This document shows positions 1 through 34,953 of a DNA stretch of 34,953 bases, piece by piece. This DNA comes from an uncultured Porphyromonadaceae bacterium (lineage in GTDB: Bacteria > Bacteroidota > Bacteroidia > Bacteroidales > Muribaculaceae), in assembly GCA_947175425.1 (NCBI GenBank), contig CAMWMR010000027.1:1-34953 (forward strand). The letters run 5' to 3'. The notes beneath the pieces are model-generated. The model was not told the DNA's origin. It searched no databases and was given only the letters and a program-made list of their open reading frames with translations. The first letter of the stretch is position 1; the number at the start of each line of letters is the position of its first letter. Made by a program: the position numbers and the translations under genes.

Positions 1-703
1 TTTTCAGAGCTTCCTTGCGGTCAACCTTTGAGTAGTCGCCTTGCATATACATTGGAGACATAATACGGTCGGTAGTTTCGAGACCTGTCGCTACAAAAGA
101 GAATCCGCCGTTGGCTTCGGCTTTAAGGATAAGTCCGGGCAGACCGTGTAACTTCCACGGACCGAATGACATTGGAATTTCCGGAGAAAACCAGGCTTTC
201 CAATGACGTCCGTGATAATCGCTTTCGGCCATTATACATTCATACCCGAGGACGGTTGCAGTGGAGTCCTCAACAATAGTCCATTGCATTTCGGAAAGCG
301 GTTCGGTATAAAATCCTTTATCCTCGCCGAATTTATTGTAATGAGTAAGGCAATCCTTCGCAAGATCGGTGAAAACATAGCTGTTGGTCGGCTTGGTAGG
401 GCCTTTTCTCATGTCAAACGAAACAGAGCCGTCGGGCTCAACGGTCATACACGCCTTTTTGATTATCTCCATGTATTGAGCCTTACCCTCGGACGTTGAC
501 TGGAGCGAATCAACCCAAAGACTGATGTCGTTGAAATACTTGGCTTCGGTAGGTGATGCCAAGAGAGACATCCTGCCTGTGTCGATTTTACCTTGTTTTG
601 TCGGGAAAGCTGAATCATAGCTGACAATAATTTCAGCCTTGTTTTGTGCCATTGCAGCAAAGGCAGCAAAGCATACGATGATTGATGTGGTTAGTCGGTT
701 CAT
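1..703 (-). CDS. GLPGLI family protein (3' end cut by window edge)
   Basis: A minus-strand reading frame stays open from an ATG at 703-701 to the window edge, giving 234 residues without a stop. The N-terminus is a Sec signal peptide (MNRLTTSIIVCFAAFAAMAQ) with likely cleavage after AMAQ. Residues 180-192 read FGPWKLHGLPGLI, which contains the motif that names the GLPGLI family, found in Bacteroidota and of unknown biochemical function. Its ATG overlaps the TGA of the upstream receptor gene (ATGA, 700-703), so the two are translationally coupled. Co-transcription with a TonB-type receptor suggests an envelope role, possibly periplasmic. The motif makes the family call secure; the function is unknown and the C-terminus lies outside the window. 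Confidence 0.9.
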   Translation of the reverse strand, partial: MNRLTTSIIVCFAAFAAMAQNKAEIIVSYDSAFPTKQGKIDTGRMSLLASPTEAKYFNDISLWVDSLQSTSEGKAQYMEIIKKACMTVEPDGSVSFDMRKGPTKPTNSYVFTDLAKDCLTHYNKFGEDKGFYTEPLSEMQWTIVEDSTATVLGYECIMAESDYHGRHWKAWFSPEIPMSFGPWKLHGLPGLILKAEANGGFSFVATGLETTDRIMSPMYMQGDYSKVDRKEALK

Positions 704-8527: not shown

Positions 8528-9994
8528 ATGATAAACCGTAGTTTAATAAGAATCAAAACAGTTCAGATTCTTTATTCATATCTACTCACTCGCACCGATT
8601 TCAAACTTGAAACGGCTCCTCAAGGCAATGCGGCCACACGTGATAATCTTTTTGCCTATTCGGTTTATCTGGATTTCATATTCCTTCTACTAAAGCTTTC
8701 CGGCCAGCCTCTCGGCACTGATTCGGGCATAGCAATAATGCCCGATGCGACAATTCAGAAAAACCGTGTGGGCGCGGCATTGCGCAACAATCCCGATGTT
8801 GCGGCACTCATTGCCGGACATCGCGCACAGCTTCCTGTTTTCGATTCATGCCTCAGCGATATTGCCAACGATATAATAGAAACCGAGGCTTACAAGGAAT
8901 ACAAGCGCAAACGCAAGCACACAATGGCCGATGATGTGGCATTCTGGACAAAAATCTACTCCACCATCATCCGTCGAAGCAAAAGCATTGAACGCATTCT
9001 CCGCCAAAACGACGACTTCAGCCACGTAGGCTTTGAGGCCGGTCTTAAAATGTTCTGCGGAACTCTCGATACCTTCGACGATACCCGCTCGTCGTACACC
9101 AAGGCTACCAACGACCTCGCTCAATCACTTACCCAGGCCTATAACCTGTATCACGCCCTGCTGTACCTGCCCGTTGTAATAACCGAAGCAATGCAGCTGC
9201 GCCAGGACGAGGCTAAAAACAAATATCTCCCCACACCCGAGGAGCTCAATCCCAACACACGCCTTGTTGAAAATCTATTCGTTAAAGCTATAAAAGACAA
9301 CAAGCAAATTAACGAATACATGTCGGACAACGACACCGCCAATCCCGAAAACTGGCGCGACATCGAGCTTGCCGTGGACAAAATGCTGGACACTATCCTT
9401 GCAACCGACGCTTATAAAAAGTACGCTGAAAGCAAACCCGGCGATTTTGCAACCGATGCTTCGTTCTGGAGAGAAATCCTCAAAACAGTTATTCTCCCCT
9501 CCGACGAACTGAGCGAACTCCTTGAGTCGTCTTCCGTATACTGGAACGATGACCTCAACATTATGGGAACATTCGTGCTCAAGACAATTCGCCGTTCCTA
9601 CGCCTCTGCCGACGACGAGGCAGCCGAAAATCCCCGCGAGAACGGGCAAATAGTTATCCTGCCCAAATTCATGAACAAGGACGACGAAGCCTTCGGCGGA
9701 AAGCTTTTCGAGTATGTTGTGAACAACCGCACCGAATATCGCCGTTACATCGACAGCTTCATCGATACCCGTCAGTGGGATACGGAGCGACTCGCCTTTA
9801 TGGACATCGTAATCATGCTCACTGCAATTGCCGAACTCATCCACTTCCCCAGCATTCCTGTTCCGGTTACAATGAACGAATACATTGAAATTGCAAACGA
9901 CTACAGCACGGCCCGCAGCGGACAGTTCATAAACGGCATTCTGTACTCTGTAATCAAACTCCTTAACGAAAAAGGAATAATCGACAAGAAATAA
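8528..9994 (+). CDS. nusB: transcription antitermination factor NusB, long form with internal duplication
   Basis: A 488-residue NusB-domain protein. Classical NusB is about 140 residues and binds boxA RNA with NusE (S10) to permit rRNA transcription. Here the NusB fold is split: an N-terminal helix (MINRSLIRIKTVQILYSYLL) and a C-terminal part from about 420 (FMDIVIMLTAIAEL, then PVPVTMNEYIEIANDYS and SGQFINGILYSVI) flank a long helical middle. The middle contains two related modules in register, offset by 174 residues: A121-YKEY then FW at 139-140, and A295-YKKY then FW at 313-314. Bacteroidota NusB proteins are known to be longer than the classical form; this one is long even so, to my knowledge. 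It leads the yajC-ybbR-coaE operon. Confidence 0.9.
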   Translation: MINRSLIRIKTVQILYSYLLTRTDFKLETAPQGNAATRDNLFAYSVYLDFIFLLLKLSGQPLGTDSGIAIMPDATIQKNRVGAALRNNPDVAALIAGHRAQLPVFDSCLSDIANDIIETEAYKEYKRKRKHTMADDVAFWTKIYSTIIRRSKSIERILRQNDDFSHVGFEAGLKMFCGTLDTFDDTRSSYTKATNDLAQSLTQAYNLYHALLYLPVVITEAMQLRQDEAKNKYLPTPEELNPNTRLVENLFVKAIKDNKQINEYMSDNDTANPENWRDIELAVDKMLDTILATDAYKKYAESKPGDFATDASFWREILKTVILPSDELSELLESSSVYWNDDLNIMGTFVLKTIRRSYASADDEAAENPRENGQIVILPKFMNKDDEAFGGKLFEYVVNNRTEYRRYIDSFIDTRQWDTERLAFMDIVIMLTAIAELIHFPSIPVPVTMNEYIEIANDYSTARSGQFINGILYSVIKLLNEKGIIDKK

Positions 9995-30661: not shown

Positions 30662-31618
30662 ATGTTACGCTCTCAAAAAATTCAAGTAAGCACGGCAACC
30701 CGCTCACGCACCGATGTATTAAAATTCAAGCCGTTGACCATACAGGCCATTCCCCAAATCAAAGCCCTGCTTGAAATGGCTCACACCCGCTCATGCGATT
30801 ACACCATCGGCGGCCTGTATATGTGGACGGGATTATACCAATACGAATACTGCATATATGCCGGCACGCTGTTCATTAAAGGACTAAACGAAGACGGCAG
30901 CGGATCTACGGCTTTTGCAGTTCCTGTCGGCGCCCTTTCTCTTGACTCGAGCTTCGGGGTGCTTAAAAAATACGCTGCAGAACAAAATATTCCGCTTATA
31001 TTCTCCGCCGTGCCCGAAGAGTATTTAAATGCACTATCTTGTTTGGGAACTTGTACGGTGACAGAACTTACCGACCTTGCCGACTACATCTACGACAGCC
31101 AAGCCCTTGCAACTCTCACGGGCAAGCACTACAACAAAAAACGCAACCACGTCAACCGATTTGTGAGCGACAATCCCGATTACACTCTTGAAGAAATCAA
31201 ACCGGATAACATCTCCGAATTAACCGGTTTTCTACGCACTCTTGGCATCGAATCCGACAAAGTCGACCCTGAAATGGCCGAATTCGAATGGAAACAATGT
31301 GAACGCGTTCTAAATCGGTACACCGATTATCCATATATCGGCGCTTTGTTGCGCGACAATTCGGGAACTGTTGTTGCTTTTACAATAGGAGAATTGTCGG
31401 GCGATACTCTGGTGTTGCACATCGAAAAGGCCGAGCACCTCATCCCCGGCTCCGGCGAAAGCATCAACCGTTTCTTCGCCGAATACATAACACAACGTTA
31501 TCCTCAAATCAAATTCATAAACCGAGAGGACTGTGCCGGTGACCCCGGCTTGCGCTTCGCCAAAGAATCGTACCACCCGATACAGCTTCTAAAAAAATAT
31601 AACGTACAATTCAAGTAG
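30662..31618 (+). CDS. DUF2156 (phosphatidylglycerol lysyltransferase-like) protein
   Basis: A 318-residue protein with the double-GNAT arrangement of the DUF2156 family. The family usually begins near a KFKPLT segment, which here is residues 21-26, so the 18 or so residues from MLRSQKIQVS may be an extension or an early start. Diagnostic parts are MAHTRSCDYTIGGLYMWTGLY, LTGKHYNKKRNHVNRF (family-conserved basic segment), and the late VLHIEKAEHLIPGSGESINRFFAEY and INREDCAGDPGLRFAKESYHP. The C-terminal domain of MprF belongs here, but no membrane helices are present, so lipid lysinylation cannot be claimed. It stands alone, 63 nt after the metallo-hydrolase gene. Confidence 0.85.
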   Translation: MLRSQKIQVSTATRSRTDVLKFKPLTIQAIPQIKALLEMAHTRSCDYTIGGLYMWTGLYQYEYCIYAGTLFIKGLNEDGSGSTAFAVPVGALSLDSSFGVLKKYAAEQNIPLIFSAVPEEYLNALSCLGTCTVTELTDLADYIYDSQALATLTGKHYNKKRNHVNRFVSDNPDYTLEEIKPDNISELTGFLRTLGIESDKVDPEMAEFEWKQCERVLNRYTDYPYIGALLRDNSGTVVAFTIGELSGDTLVLHIEKAEHLIPGSGESINRFFAEYITQRYPQIKFINREDCAGDPGLRFAKESYHPIQLLKKYNVQFK

Positions 31619-31693: not shown

Positions 31694-31882
31694 TATACCC
31701 CCAAGCATCACGCTGTATTTAGATGCAAGGTGGATAATTACTCGGCAGCTTACATCAAGCTGCGCATCATCTACGACAGAAGCAGCTATGTCTATGTATC
31801 GCCCGAAGATGAGGAATCATTCGTTGGCACACTGCAATCCATCAATCCCAATATCGAATATAGCAGCGAACGAGGCTTGTAA
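31694..31882 (+). pseudogene. relic of a bPH_4-like gene with an internal in-frame deletion
   Basis: This 63-codon stretch reads YTPKHHAVFRCKVD, jumps directly to YSAAYIKLRIIYDRSSYVYV, and ends in INPNIEYSSERGL-stop. It matches the two ends of the intact gene at 34260-34763 but lacks about 85-90 central residues, including both membrane helices. The join falls at a GGAT present at both deletion ends in the intact gene. There is no in-frame ATG upstream, so it is probably not translated. Its 3' part belongs to the long direct repeat that also carries the promoter of the next gene. Confidence 0.8.
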
Positions 31883-32027
31883 CCGTAAGCAATATGGGCA
31901 AAATGCGATGAATAAATAGAATAATCACCGTTCAAGGCTGATTTTCAAGCCCGTTTGGGACATTTGTCACATCCAATATCGTTTTTTCTTCATAAATTTG
32001 CGATATTACAGACAATAGACTCTCATG
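31754..32027 (+). repeat. direct repeat, copy 1 (gene tail, trailer, promoter, next ATG)
   Basis: 274 bp aligns without gaps to 34629-34902, with about 25 mismatches by my count (about 91% identity). Only six mismatches fall in the first 126 bp, the coding tail of the bPH_4 gene; most lie in the spacer. The repeat ends exactly at the start codon of the downstream gene in both copies. Confidence 0.9.
31993..32000 (+). promoter_or_regulatory. -7 promoter element in repeat copy 1
   Basis: TAAATTTG fits TAnnTTTG and is preserved in both repeat copies. A TTTG at 31963-31966 is also preserved in both, but the 26-nt spacing is long for a -33 box. The start would be near 32006, about 18 nt before the ATG at 32025. 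Confidence 0.55.
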
Positions 32028-32426
32028 GAACTGCTAAGGGCCTTATTCTACCAATATTATTGGTGGCAGATGCGACAGGAACAGGATGGATTCTTCGTTC
32101 CTCTGTTGGCTGTGTTCAGTGTCCTGTGTCCGATTTTTGGGATAATCGGTTTTGTAATGATTTCGGCTGATGTTACAGATATTATTGATTTGAAGAAATA
32201 TGATGTGAAAATAATAATTTCAGCTATGTTCATTCTCGGACTCGCCGCTTTATGGTGGTTGCTTTTACGAAAGGAACGATATAGAGCGATAATCTGCGAA
32301 CATGAAGTCTATAATATTTCTGTGTATCGACGACTCGCGGTGATTTATCCAATTCTATCTGCAACACTTTTCTTTATTGGACTGTATATCGGTTATCTAC
32401 ATAATTCGGCAACGATAAGCCAGTGA
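32025..32426 (+). CDS. small membrane protein, unknown family
   Basis: A 133-residue protein beginning MELLRALFYQYYWWQ, with three predicted membrane helices (about 23-46, 60-81 and 107-126). The cytoplasmic loop is basic (LLLRKERYRAIICEHEVY). I do not recognise a family. It starts at the exact end of the direct repeat, just after a preserved promoter, and is followed 10 nt later by the DUF4304 gene. Start choice is supported by the matching ATG position in repeat copy 2. It has the lower GC and codon use of this right-hand cluster. Confidence 0.75.
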   Translation: MELLRALFYQYYWWQMRQEQDGFFVPLLAVFSVLCPIFGIIGFVMISADVTDIIDLKKYDVKIIISAMFILGLAALWWLLLRKERYRAIICEHEVYNISVYRRLAVIYPILSATLFFIGLYIGYLHNSATISQ

Positions 32427-32436
32427 TTATTAGCGT

Positions 32437-33150
32437 ATGGATAATCACATCAATAAATTTCAGCGACAAGGATTCATAATCCTGATGATATGCTCGGCTA
32501 TAATGCTTGGCATAGGGATTTATATGTTTGTGGCTGATTTCTATTCTACAAGCATCGTAACGAGTTGGCGCTTCAATCCTACCGAGCAAACTATATCATG
32601 GCAAACTCCTGTATTCGGAGCAATCGTCATGCTCATATTGGGTATTCTAATCAAAATAGACAGGCCCAAATTACCAAAAATGAACACACAAGGCAAACGC
32701 ACTTTCGTACTTGAAAAGATAACGGATTATCTGAAAGATAATGATTTCAAGAAACGAGGCAATCATTTCTACAAAAGCAACGGCGAGATAGGTTATTGTG
32801 TGAACATTCAGAATGACAAATGGAATGATGCCAATCAAATCCGCTTCACCTTGAATGTCGGTATATTTACCGAGGCTTTTTGGCTTGAATGTGAGGATTT
32901 CAAGAATACCGGGATTATCCCTACTTTCCCGAAAGAATATGAGTGTGCTATACGAGAGAGAATCGGCGGCTTGCTCCAGGTCAAAGAGGATAAATGGTAC
33001 TGCATTACCTCCAGTACGGATGTTATGAAACTATGGAACGAAATAGAGCGCGATCTAACCGAATATATACTGCCGTTCTTTACCCGTTACAATACCGAAT
33101 CTGATGTCATACCCAATCAATTTATCTACCGAAAAGGAGGCAAGCAATGA
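32437..33150 (+). CDS. membrane-anchored DUF4304 protein
   Basis: A 237-residue protein. The N-terminal 80 residues hold two membrane helices (about 12-34 and 56-72) with WRFNPTEQTISWQTP between them. The remainder is a DUF4304-like domain (about 88-230): ITDYLKDNDFKKRGNHFYK, YCVNIQNDKWNDANQIRFTLNVGI, IRERIGGLLQVKEDKWYCI. DUF4304 proteins are usually soluble, of unknown biochemistry, and appear in bacterial genomes near toxin-immunity-type clusters; a membrane-anchored form is less familiar to me. Its TGA overlaps the ATG of the next gene (ATGA, 33147-33150). Function is unknown; an immunity-like role is only a suggestion. Confidence 0.75.
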   Translation: MDNHINKFQRQGFIILMICSAIMLGIGIYMFVADFYSTSIVTSWRFNPTEQTISWQTPVFGAIVMLILGILIKIDRPKLPKMNTQGKRTFVLEKITDYLKDNDFKKRGNHFYKSNGEIGYCVNIQNDKWNDANQIRFTLNVGIFTEAFWLECEDFKNTGIIPTFPKEYECAIRERIGGLLQVKEDKWYCITSSTDVMKLWNEIERDLTEYILPFFTRYNTESDVIPNQFIYRKGGKQ

Positions 33151-33863
33151 AAATGTTAGGCAGAATAATAGCATATTCAATTGCTGTCGGCTTCGTTCTC
33201 GTTGTCGGATTGATTATTGTTGCCACTTATCTGATGGGATATAATGTGGCGGAAAGAAGAGAGCGAGAGCTTGAGAACAGAGATAAAATAATCGAGCGGA
33301 CAGACTCTTTCCGTGCGGCAAATGGACATTTGCCCGAATCGATGTCGGAAGTGGGCTTCAGGCAGACAGGCGGTGGAGGATATTATTACAAAGGAATTAT
33401 ATTTGACTATATCAAGTTAAACGACAAAGAATACGTTGTAGAATATACCTCTGAGGATGGTGTTCTCACGCAGTATCATGATCACTGCTGGACTGAAGAA
33501 CCCGATATTTGCCTGATAGAAATGCCTGTAAACGCAGACACGATAGCTGCAATAAGCAGAATTTCAAAATTTGAACAGGATTACAATGTCCCTCCATTGA
33601 TAGACAGCATATCCTTTAATCAGTCTCGAATATGTCCGATTGGCGATTATACCGGACAGCCTGATTCTACCGCATATATTCGTTATCTATACAAAGATGG
33701 CAGTGTTCGATGCGAGGGCTGGGTTGCATACTTTGATGAGCCGGAAGATGATTTCAGCAACCCATTCGGCGAATGGAAATACTATGATCAGGAAGGCAAC
33801 TGCTATCGAAAATTCTGGAATTACAAACAAAACGACAGATTGATATATGAAACTGACCGATAA
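33147..33863 (+). CDS. membrane-anchored protein with pilin-like and YwqK/MORN-like parts
   Basis: A 238-residue protein. One membrane helix (about 8-32) is followed by a region RERELENRDKIIERTDSFRAANGHLPESMSEVGF, then YYYKGIIFDYIKLNDKEYVVEY, reminiscent of the helix-plus-sheet of pilin-like proteins. The C-terminus (TAYIRYLYKDGSVRCEGWVAYF, then FGEWKYYDQEGNC) resembles the short repeats of YwqK/MORN-type proteins, sometimes annotated as antitoxins. Both comparisons are tentative. The bulk would face the periplasm. It overlaps the DUF4304 gene by 4 bp and the next gene by 17 bp, so this is one operon. Confidence 0.7.
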   Translation: MKMLGRIIAYSIAVGFVLVVGLIIVATYLMGYNVAERRERELENRDKIIERTDSFRAANGHLPESMSEVGFRQTGGGGYYYKGIIFDYIKLNDKEYVVEYTSEDGVLTQYHDHCWTEEPDICLIEMPVNADTIAAISRISKFEQDYNVPPLIDSISFNQSRICPIGDYTGQPDSTAYIRYLYKDGSVRCEGWVAYFDEPEDDFSNPFGEWKYYDQEGNCYRKFWNYKQNDRLIYETDR

Positions 33864-34218
33864 ACGATTCTGGATAGCATGGGCTACGGTAGAGCTATTG
33901 TTGTTATCCTCTTGTATTTATATGGCAGTCCATAGTAAATTTATAGGTATAATATGTGTTTTCGGAGCAAGCCAACCGTTAATGATAGCTTTGACTCTAT
34001 ACAAAAAGAAACATCAAAATGGAGCTTTGGCAAATTTAATAATTGTCGGTTTGTATTCCATTTATTCTGTATATATAAGTATATCAGGACAAGATGCCAA
34101 TGGTTGGGGTTGGACATTTGGCATGATTATTCTTCCAATAATACAGCTAATCCTGTTGTTACTTTATTGGGGTCTTGAAAGACTTGCAAGAATCGCTCAA
34201 CGAAGAAATCAATCATAA
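33847..34218 (+). CDS. small four-helix membrane protein, unknown family
   Basis: A 123-residue hydrophobic protein with about four membrane helices (about 9-27, 32-50, 61-79 and 87-110) and a basic C-terminus (RLARIAQRRNQS). No family is recognised. It begins inside the preceding gene (17-bp overlap) and its TAA shares a base with an ATG of the following frame (TAATG at 34216-34220), so translation is coupled on both sides. The sequence is markedly A+T-rich compared with the core genes to the left. Confidence 0.7.
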   Translation: MKLTDKRFWIAWATVELLLLSSCIYMAVHSKFIGIICVFGASQPLMIALTLYKKKHQNGALANLIIVGLYSIYSVYISISGQDANGWGWTFGMIILPIIQLILLLLYWGLERLARIAQRRNQS

Positions 34219-34259
34219 TGCTATTGAGTTGTAACCTCCAATATCAAAATAACGTAACA

Positions 34260-34763
34260 ATGGATAATTCAATCGTTCCTCCGCCATATACCCCCAAGCA
34301 CCACGCTGTGTTTCGATGCAAGGTGGATAAACAACAATATATAATTCCGCTTGTAATCTGGTGTATCCTTGACATCATAATTCTTATTGTTACTCCTAAT
34401 ATTCTATTGGGTATCTTCATTGTATCATTATCAATTGTACCAATTGGAGTCGCCCTACTTTGGATTAAGTATTTTTGGGGTAAAATTACTTATATTATAG
34501 AGGGTCAAGAATTACGCATTATTACTCCTTTGAAATCTATATCAATCAAAATCAATAACATAAAGAAAATAAAACGAGTAATTGAGTATTTAATATCTCA
34601 CAAGGGAAGGGATTTTTCAGCCTCTCATATCAAGCTGCGCATCATCTACGACAGAAGCAGCTATGTCTATGTATCGCCTGAAGATGAGGAATCATTCGTT
34701 AACACGCTGCAAGCCATCAATCCCAATATCGAATATAGCAGCGAACGAGGCTTGAAATCATAA
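34260..34763 (+). CDS. bPH_4-like (bacterial PH domain) membrane protein
   Basis: A 167-residue protein: an N-terminal YTPKHHAVFRCKVD segment, two membrane helices (about 28-46 and 50-71), then a bacterial PH-like domain with YIIEGQELRIITPLKSISIKI and the characteristic ending IIYDRSSYVYVSPEDEESFV then INPNIEYSS, as in PF06713-type (bPH_4) proteins. An in-frame ATG at 34218 overlapping the upstream stop would add 14 residues (MLLSCNLQYQNNVT). I prefer 34260 because MDNSIVPPP fits better, but translational coupling makes 34218 possible. It is the intact version of the relic at 31694-31882. Confidence 0.8.
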   Translation: MDNSIVPPPYTPKHHAVFRCKVDKQQYIIPLVIWCILDIIILIVTPNILLGIFIVSLSIVPIGVALLWIKYFWGKITYIIEGQELRIITPLKSISIKINNIKKIKRVIEYLISHKGRDFSASHIKLRIIYDRSSYVYVSPEDEESFVNTLQAINPNIEYSSERGLKS

Positions 34764-34902
34764 GCAATATGGGCGAAATGCGATGAATAAATAGAATAAT
34801 CATCGTTAATATCTGATTTTCACGCACATTTGGGACATTTGTCACATCCATTGTTGATTATTCTTTGTAAATTTGCGATATTACAGATAATAGACTCTCA
34901 TG
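34629..34902 (+). repeat. direct repeat, copy 2 (gene tail, trailer, promoter, next ATG)
   Basis: The partner of 31754-32027, of identical length. It carries the last 44 codons of the intact bPH_4 gene plus stop, the trailer beginning TAAGCAATATGGGC, the -7 box and the start codon of the next gene. Confidence 0.9.
34864..34875 (+). promoter_or_regulatory. -7 promoter element in repeat copy 2
   Basis: TAAATTTG at 34868-34875, directly preceded by TTTG (34864-34867). It is equivalent in position to the box at 31993-32000 and would drive the partial gene at 34900. Confidence 0.5.
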
Positions 34903-34953
34903 AAATTAGATATAAAGAATTATCCGTTAATACTGAAATTCGTCTGCGTCTTG
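34900..34953 (+). CDS. start of the next cassette gene (cut by window edge)
   Basis: The ATG closing repeat copy 2 opens a frame of 18 codons to the window edge (MKLDIKNYPLILKFVCVL). It occupies the place held by the 32025 gene after copy 1 but has a different sequence, so the repeat is followed by different genes. The last residues are hydrophobic and may begin a membrane helix. Too short to classify. Confidence 0.6.
   Translation, partial: MKLDIKNYPLILKFVCVL

Follow-up and report, generated by a model that had tools for sequence, protein, structure and literature searches.

How do small genes of unrelated families come to stand in one orientation, with overlapping ends, between two copies of a direct repeat? 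The question is raised by the right-hand end of contig CAMWMR010000027.1 (assembly GCA_947175425.1), a stretch of 34,953 nucleotides, called the window throughout, from an uncultured bacterium of the family Muribaculaceae. This end carries five genes, P1 to P5 (Table 1), which an earlier note, made from the sequence alone, had taken for a repeat-bounded cassette of small membrane proteins that apparently grows by duplication through a shared unit of bPH_4 gene end and promoter. We compared the locus with loci fetched from other genomes, which are labelled here by L-numbers, and found that the commonest joint is one that had gone unrecognised: a 27-base tag that opens with the start codon of P4 and begins many otherwise unrelated genes. 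We put at roughly 73% the probability that the window end is one module of a heterogeneous orphan-immunity array of Muribaculaceae (a polyimmunity locus resembling acquired interbacterial defence, AID, clusters) that is reassorted at such start-codon joints.

A start-codon tag heads unrelated genes and marks switches of neighbours

The tag consensus, ATGAAACTGACCGATAAACGATTTTGG, encodes MKLTDKRFW. In the window it occurs once, with one mismatch, where P3 ends and P4 starts, and its 20-base form is unique in the source genome at up to 3 mismatches. With the same tolerance the tag was found in 31 of 225 genomes of the family, spread over 11 of 26 genera and often present several times per contig at distances of 0.4-4 kb, and the reversed pattern gave no hit. 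Across the order it was found in 5 of 393 genomes, and in 2 of the 387 outside the family; the exact 29-base tag was found in no stretch of viral contigs.

Loci that duplicate contigs present elsewhere in the set (L085, L089, L106, L108 and L113) were dropped before clustering. L086 was kept despite its overlap with L041, which doubled some genes in the cluster sizes, and the site contexts were made unique. The resulting 83 tag contexts have 24 downstream protein clusters and 32 upstream clusters, with 7 sites lacking a called upstream cluster. When the downstream clusters were merged at any similarity with an expectation value (E) up to 1e-3, the tag having been removed, 16 groups were left. 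For the 2761 pairs of contexts that differ on both sides under this group-level rule, identity is 0.85 over +1 to +27, 0.28 upstream and 0.29 downstream; between unrelated genes it stops at the ATG and at about +30. Switches of neighbours were found in both directions: 60 pairs are at least 80% alike over the upstream 240 nt and less than 55% alike downstream, and 60 pairs show the reverse (shuffled background identity 0.39, standard deviation 0.16). The tag of the window takes part in both kinds of switch, with upstream and downstream identities of 0.93 and 0.50 against L041 and of 0.51 and 0.88 against L117. The main joint is the start-codon tag, not the bPH_4-promoter unit, which has a minor place: among the 15 loci with P2, a P5-like bPH_4 gene precedes the promoter in L037 and L041 only.

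The distribution of mismatches within the tag bears on how the exchange might occur. In 41 closer pairs with the same upstream side, the mismatch rate per third of the tag rises (0.08, 0.08, 0.16), and in 40 closer pairs with the same downstream side it falls (0.10, 0.08, 0.03), tag position 12 being variable in both sets alike. These gradients are as predicted for exchange inside the tag, which may proceed by general homologous recombination through the 27-bp repeat. The same array could in principle be shuffled in an integron-like manner, with the tag as the target of a site-specific recombinase, as the sharp borders at the ATG and +30 and the tyrosine recombinases at the head of array-carrying mobile elements would suggest. 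Since the gradients point to an exchange spread across the tag, with no single fixed point, and no such enzyme was recognised by eye in 19 kb of L082 or in L107 and L111, two stretches with one tag each, we consider this unlikely.

A different proposal is that the tag is kept for its peptide, as an N-terminal signal or membrane anchor, so that genes inherit it and any shuffling is secondary. The residues of MKLTDKRFW are indeed conserved and many proteins have hydrophobic segments directly behind them; however, the tag is also found on proteins without such segments (DUF2750 and pentapeptide proteins), and its third codon positions, codon 10 excepted, are 79-100% conserved over 70 non-redundant sites. 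Descent from a single gene, moreover, cannot give an identity that is bounded at the ATG and at about +30. As an explanation by itself the peptide is therefore improbable, and a role of the peptide may hold together with a role in exchange.

The tag preserves the reading frames on both sides

In addition to its own start codon, the tag contains TGA at +2 to +4 and TAA at +15 to +17, that is, one stop in each frame other than its own. The upstream gene overlaps the tag by 4 bp at 23 of the 83 contexts, by 17 bp at 27 and by 1, 10 or 14 bp at 14; a gap is left at 18, and one context has no upstream gene. Upstream open reading frames (ORFs) of 60 or more codons enter the tag in frames 1, 2 and 3 at 0, 18 and 29 of 74 sites (up to 3 mismatches, no ORF filter). 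Allowing up to 7 mismatches changes these counts to 1, 27 and 36 of 96, the single in-frame site having only 19 codons downstream. Position T15 opens the TAA stop and at the same time is a silent third position of a codon; all 70 non-redundant sites have T there. The tag would thus supply the start codon of an incoming gene and terminate the upstream gene in either other frame, so that a swap would leave both reading frames intact.

Two further joints lie in coding ends. A second start tag, MKKWQKI, heads 7 clusters; because upstream ORFs of 60 or more codons run into it in frame at 2 of 21 sites, the frame rule is not strict there and is claimed for the main tag only. An end tag, KGGKR followed by the stop and containing AGGAGG, occurs at 34 gene ends in 10 clusters. 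Control windows placed inside genes gave no cross-cluster group of more than 2 among the ten largest. One low-GC cassette with both start tags (L105, 8218-9490; G018:C5) lies inverted inside a high-GC region that looks by eye like a prophage and encodes a tape-measure-like protein.

Tagged genes form variable arrays, some on mobile elements

Arrays were defined as at least 3 genes on the same strand with gaps up to 160, GC below 47.5% and a tag present. This rule may take in flanking genes, which happened in the window, where the run starts at 30662, and it makes the same orientation of array genes partly a matter of construction. It yielded 46 arrays of up to 22 genes, found in Muribaculaceae and in one Phocaeicola; their 374 genes fall into 126 clusters. 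Of 328 adjacent gene pairs 204 overlap, with a median spacing of -4. Median GC is 39.3%, and 67% of the genes lie under 41%. A hydrophobic segment is present in 76% of array genes versus 32% of 413 other ORFs, the latter limited to 100 or more amino acids and the former without a length limit. Array clusters have diverse neighbours, with examples of 9 different successors among 12 cases and 11 different predecessors among 15, and array content differs between species, the level that the comparison covered.

Some arrays travel on mobilisable elements. A tyrosine integrase and a RhuM/Fic gene, neighbours in 11 of 11 cases, precede the array in L031, L038, L040, L088 and L092; in the last four of these loci DUF6043- and DUF3987-family genes come after the array and are in turn followed by mobilisation-type genes. 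No element genes were recognised in the stretch of L082 examined, and the same was true of other arrays.

Several single proteins appear to be composite. L091 (5292-6260) has an apparent in-frame chimera of P1 and another array family, and L090 (4941-5924) one of an MKLIYR membrane protein and a P3-type protein. Tag-borne chimeras of pentapeptide repeats and Imm40 occur in L120 (1450-2328) and L126 (1474-2343), assigned by Pfam for L120 and by similarity and an Imm40 match for L126. Next to these two chimeras there are tag-borne Imm40 proteins that have membrane helices in place of the repeats, which suggests that modules are swapped inside genes too.

Named immunity families are found in the arrays

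Pfam searches of tag genes revealed an Imm40 domain that follows the tag and helices (E 9e-14), a DUF2750 match at E 2e-15, pentapeptides and, weakly, CarboxypepD_reg/WG. A further 65 cluster representatives were hand-picked from 91, omitting those scanned earlier and flanking-looking genes; Pfam placed Imm32 in 2 of these clusters and CdiI_3, Imm40, DKNYY and TPR in 1 each, and NCBIfam placed the STM3941 family in 3. The L080 array has CdiI_3 and DUF2750 together. In a search of the 225 family genomes that was blind to the tag, 8 of 9 Imm40 and 3 of 4 DUF2750 ORFs were found to start with it (up to 7 mismatches) and both CdiI_3 matches fell within tag arrays, so that 13 of 15 matches to the three families lie in such arrays. 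The DUF2750 starts keep the first 18 tag bases with at most one change and then diverge. At up to 3 mismatches the tag is present in 7 of the 10 genomes with these matches versus 31 of 225 overall (p 4e-5, relatedness ignored).

Zhang et al. (2012; PMC3482391) list Ntox8 as the toxin partner of DUF2750, which is Imm16. At L147 (2975-6701; G554:C3), a protein that ends in Ntox8, Rhs-like by eye and matched by Pfam to Ntox8 and weakly to DUF6443, overlaps the start of an untagged DUF2750 gene. The product of the latter is 38-39% identical to two tagged DUF2750 proteins, a relation that would be expected between cognate and orphan immunity proteins. The two L147 genes are thus likely to be a cognate pair related to the tagged orphan DUF2750.

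The family search returned 12 DUF4304 matches in 10 genomes. Two untagged low-GC runs with intergenic gaps contain the domain: one combines an unanchored DUF4304 with SUKH and Imm51 (L152, 75-9897), and the other, hardly typed, holds another DUF4304 (L153, 129-3854). L150 has an anchored DUF4304 without P1 or tag. As gene neighbourhoods, these contexts lend support to a putative immunity role for P2. Relatives of the domain were found in 4 plasmid records, all distant, and in no phage, and no solved structure matched at a meaningful E-value (best 0.099). We infer that P1 to P5 are immunity proteins. Because the array proteins are biased towards the membrane, the target toxins may act at the membrane or in the periplasm.

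An anti-phage defence island, in place of immunity to bacterial toxins, would likewise be expected to have variable content and to ride on mobile elements. Two weak PADLOC matches among the 65 clusters, the YhcG-type nuclease in one array and the prophage-like appearance (by eye) of the L105 region around its tag cassette point in that direction. However, the two PADLOC matches have E of only 0.002 and 0.008, none of the five window proteins matched PADLOC at E up to 1, and the named matches in the arrays are to families of bacterial-toxin immunity. We therefore regard a defence island as very unlikely.

A number of observations weigh against reading the window as an orphan-immunity module. 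The profile searches that the earlier note had proposed yielded no match between P1 to P5 and named immunity domains in Pfam, PADLOC or NCBIfam, and neither DUF4304 nor bPH_4 is named as an immunity family in the sections of the literature covered here. The window has a single start tag, its last 6 kb show no recognisable recombinase, and no toxin or type VI secretion system (T6SS) gene was recognised beside its array. In the arrays at large, the TPR, DKNYY, CarboxypepD_reg and STM3941 (3 of 65) domains need not mean immunity. Most scanned clusters have no Pfam match, and array L032 holds a YhcG-type nuclease. Under a strict count, with the tag at the gene's own start and up to 3 mismatches, 7 of 9 Imm40 and 0 of 4 DUF2750 ORFs are tagged. 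Finally, the tag sites and the genomes are related, and nominal improbabilities overstate their independence.

The window genes and the direct repeat

P1 to P5 are co-oriented. The overlaps of 4 to 17 bp described earlier hold for P2/P3 (4 bp) and P3/P4 (17 bp); P1 and P2 are separated by a 10-bp gap, and P4 and P5 overlap by 1 bp only if P5 starts at the ATG at 34218, the start that matches its relatives being 34260. GC is 39, 40, 42, 35 and 36% for P1 to P5 and 47-49% for the three preceding genes. The five proteins are present as first described, apart from the assignment of P3 to the YwqK family: no YwqK/MORN-type match was found in Pfam or NCBIfam at E up to 1, the best Pfam match being Agenet at E 0.21. 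P3 possibly has a pilin-like fold. DUF4304 and bPH_4 are the only families that Pfam supports in the five, and none of them reached an NCBIfam cut-off.

The direct repeat, first given as 274 bp at about 91% identity, is real over 271 gapless nt (31754-32024 against 34629-34899) with 25 mismatches, or 90.8% identity, and is not contiguous with a further 44 nt at 93% (31694-31737 against 34287-34330). The two pieces are 281 bp apart in the right copy, which is part of the intact bPH_4 gene P5; the left copy has neither the intervening stretch nor a start codon. As the earlier note had it, the alignment runs through the 3' end of bPH_4, its trailer, the promoter region and the next ATG, after which the sequences diverge into unlike ORFs (MELLRALF at 32025 and MKLDIKNY at 34900). 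The MKLDIKNY peptide was not found in the other loci compared, and its ORF is cut off at 34953, where window and contig end together. No third repeat copy was found in the source genome at E up to 0.001.

The junction in the left copy, AATTACTCGGC, resembles the bPH_4 alleles of L041 and L037 and is unlike the right-hand gene. Judged from these alignments, the left copy is a deleted bPH_4 relic of an allele type found in other strains, which makes a recent local duplication unlikely. On this ground we rejected the view that the repeat arose by a recent tandem duplication. P5 itself is 91-95% identical to its L037 and L041 counterparts at the ends and about 75% over the whole gene and trailer; its core has probably diversified between conserved arms.

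Relatives of P2 (63-95%) were found in 15 loci, from Muribaculaceae isolates, Duncaniella muris, Barnesiella sp. WM24, Phocaeicola sartorii and metagenome-assembled genomes. In the genus to which the window belongs, just 2 of 49 genomes have P2, the source genome counted, which suggests that it was acquired. P2 comes directly after P1 in 12 of 12 cases. What follows this pair varies between a window-type P3, a 39% variant and other genes, and what follows P3 changes as well. The five genes are thus not fixed in one order, and the suggestion of an immunity-like array whose members are exchanged at common joints stands, with the same genes beside other neighbours elsewhere and named immunity families in the arrays. 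An operon of the usual kind, coding for small membrane proteins and ending in one local duplication, which the five co-oriented, closely spaced genes, the direct repeat and the constant P1-P2 pair might recall, is hardly credible, as homologues of P3, P4 and P5 have other neighbours elsewhere, array successors and predecessors are diverse where the integrase-RhuM pair is fixed, and the two repeat copies are different alleles.

The promoter region precedes P1 in 10 of 10 loci with full-length P1. It is also found 5' of a YhcG/DUF1016 nuclease gene, of DUF4304, of a radical-SAM gene and, in the window, of the MKLDIKNY ORF. Its box GGGACATTTGTC and the Bacteroidales -7-like TAAATTTG we take to be promoter elements. 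In L032 the YhcG/DUF1016 nuclease gene (8859-9962) lies within the array, between the array promoter and DUF4304, and radical-SAM genes of relatives carry the promoter box. Proteins of L032 (5121-6053), L033 (5193-7030) and L116 (10940-12678) have a common N-terminal stretch beginning MARGKQTCKILKEIRRQIAEANGIEF and diverge behind it; the one in L032 adjoins a radical-SAM gene. L039 (JAAUYT010000009.1) is a record titled Clostridia bacterium with an array of Bacteroidales type, and the contig may be mis-binned.

Table 1. Features at the right-hand end of the window (aa, amino acids)
Feature	Position	Strand	Basis
bPH_4 relic: 44 bp of the 5' part fused to the last ~145 bp; start codon and ~270 bp of core gone; stop 31880-31882	31694..31882	+	alignment with P5, L041, L037
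Trailer and promoter region, left copy; GGGACATTTGTC at 31957-31968, TAAATTTG at 31993-32000	31883..32024	+	similar region before other genes elsewhere
P1, 133 aa, three hydrophobic segments	32025..32426	+	relatives 59-95% in 10 full-length loci
P2, membrane-anchored DUF4304 protein, 237 aa	32437..33150	+	PF14137, E 1.1e-21; 15 loci
End tag: P2 tail KGGKQ and stop, Shine-Dalgarno-like AGGAGG at 33135-33140, ATGA overlap with P3	33133..33150	+	similar tail at 34 gene ends, 10 clusters
P3, single N-terminal helix and sheet domain, 238 aa	33147..33863	+	
Start-codon tag (joint A): ATG of P4; TGA in frame 2 at +2..4; TAA in frame 3 at +15..17, terminating P3	33847..33873	+	one mismatch to 27-base consensus
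P4, tag-borne four-segment protein (MKLTDKRFW...), 123 aa	33847..34218	+	cluster of 15
P5 (intact bPH_4 gene), two hydrophobic segments; ORF opens at 34218, start matching relatives at 34260	34260..34763	+	PF06713, E 8e-8
Trailer and promoter region, right copy; GGGACATTTGTC at 34832-34843, TAAATTTG at 34868-34875	34764..34899	+	repeat alignment
Start of next ORF, MKLDIKNYPLILKFVCVL, truncated by contig end	34900..34953	+	sequence

Comparison with known systems

Like the heterogeneous polyimmunity loci of Zhang et al. (2012; PMC3482391), as characterised in the section used here, the arrays are co-oriented, tightly packed and variable, combine unrelated immunity families and sometimes lie beside recombinases; Imm16/DUF2750, Imm32 and Imm40 are common to both. 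Unrelated immunity proteins in tandem, same orientation with small spacing, and variable content are all found in the arrays, the window module alone contributing only DUF4304 and bPH_4 to the first of these. Polyimmunity loci are also never interrupted by toxin genes. In the arrays, scans of the clusters, most of which lack a Pfam match, showed no toxin domain other than the YhcG-type nuclease of L032, and inspection by eye of ORFs of at least 560 amino acids revealed no recognisable toxin. Unlike those loci, the arrays consist mostly of membrane proteins, no SUKH was found among the array clusters scanned, and unrelated genes have a common start-codon tag, a joint that the section in PMC3482391 does not describe. 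By most features tested, the arrays would be classed with heterogeneous polyimmunity loci.

The arrays also resemble recombinase-associated AID (rAID) clusters, as far as the published sections used here portray them. Both occur in Bacteroidales and are mobile and low in GC, with co-oriented genes of 100-300 codons, and both have orphan immunity proteins related to cognate-looking ones, at 38-39% identity in the arrays. A mark of rAID clusters is at least two co-oriented genes with GC below 41%, and the window has four (P1, P2, P4 and P5, with P3 at 42%). As for the upstream tyrosine recombinase of those clusters, a homologue of BF9343_RS08045, the candidate counterpart is the Phage_int_SAM_5 integrase that precedes the array in L031-type elements. 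Where rAID clusters have conserved intergenic motifs, the arrays have conserved joints in coding starts and ends; unlike in rAID, overlaps join the majority of genes, and few genomes of the order beyond the family have the tag.

Integrons exchange promoterless gene cassettes in an array at a repeated short sequence. The arrays are similar in that promoterless genes are exchanged at such a sequence, and differ in having the joint within coding sequence, at the start codon; none of their genes was identified as an integron integrase. Immunity genes in arrays are also known from the T6SS of Vibrio cholerae, where, according to the title of the report (PMC5361080), they arise by sequential displacement of effector genes; the arrays described here contain no recognised effector. 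Within the open-licence literature, the new element is the joint: unrelated genes carry a short coding-start sequence where neighbours are exchanged with both reading frames kept.

A proposed route of exchange and its meaning

In the route that we propose for the orphan-immunity array, a promoter-bearing joint would open the transcription unit, behind which stand small co-oriented genes, mostly for membrane proteins, whose overlaps of a few bases make translational coupling probable. Genes would enter or be swapped by recombination at short common joints, namely the 27-bp start tag, MKKWQKI, the KGGKR end tag and the promoter region. Such an array would probably shield the cell from toxins that rival gut bacteria deliver. 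We suggest more tentatively that the start tag may be a dedicated, frame-safe joining site or adaptor, by which any immunity gene could be inserted into an overlapping, translation-coupled array without harm to its neighbours; exchange would then be an evolved way for gut Bacteroidales to build immunity repertoires and membrane-anchored immunity chimeras.

The joint can be read at the level of single bases and the switches can be mapped pair by pair. The joint also hints at how overlapping and probably co-translated genes may be swapped without damage to their frames. The tag also offers a DNA handle for candidate immunity genes among dozens of unannotated families of membrane proteins.

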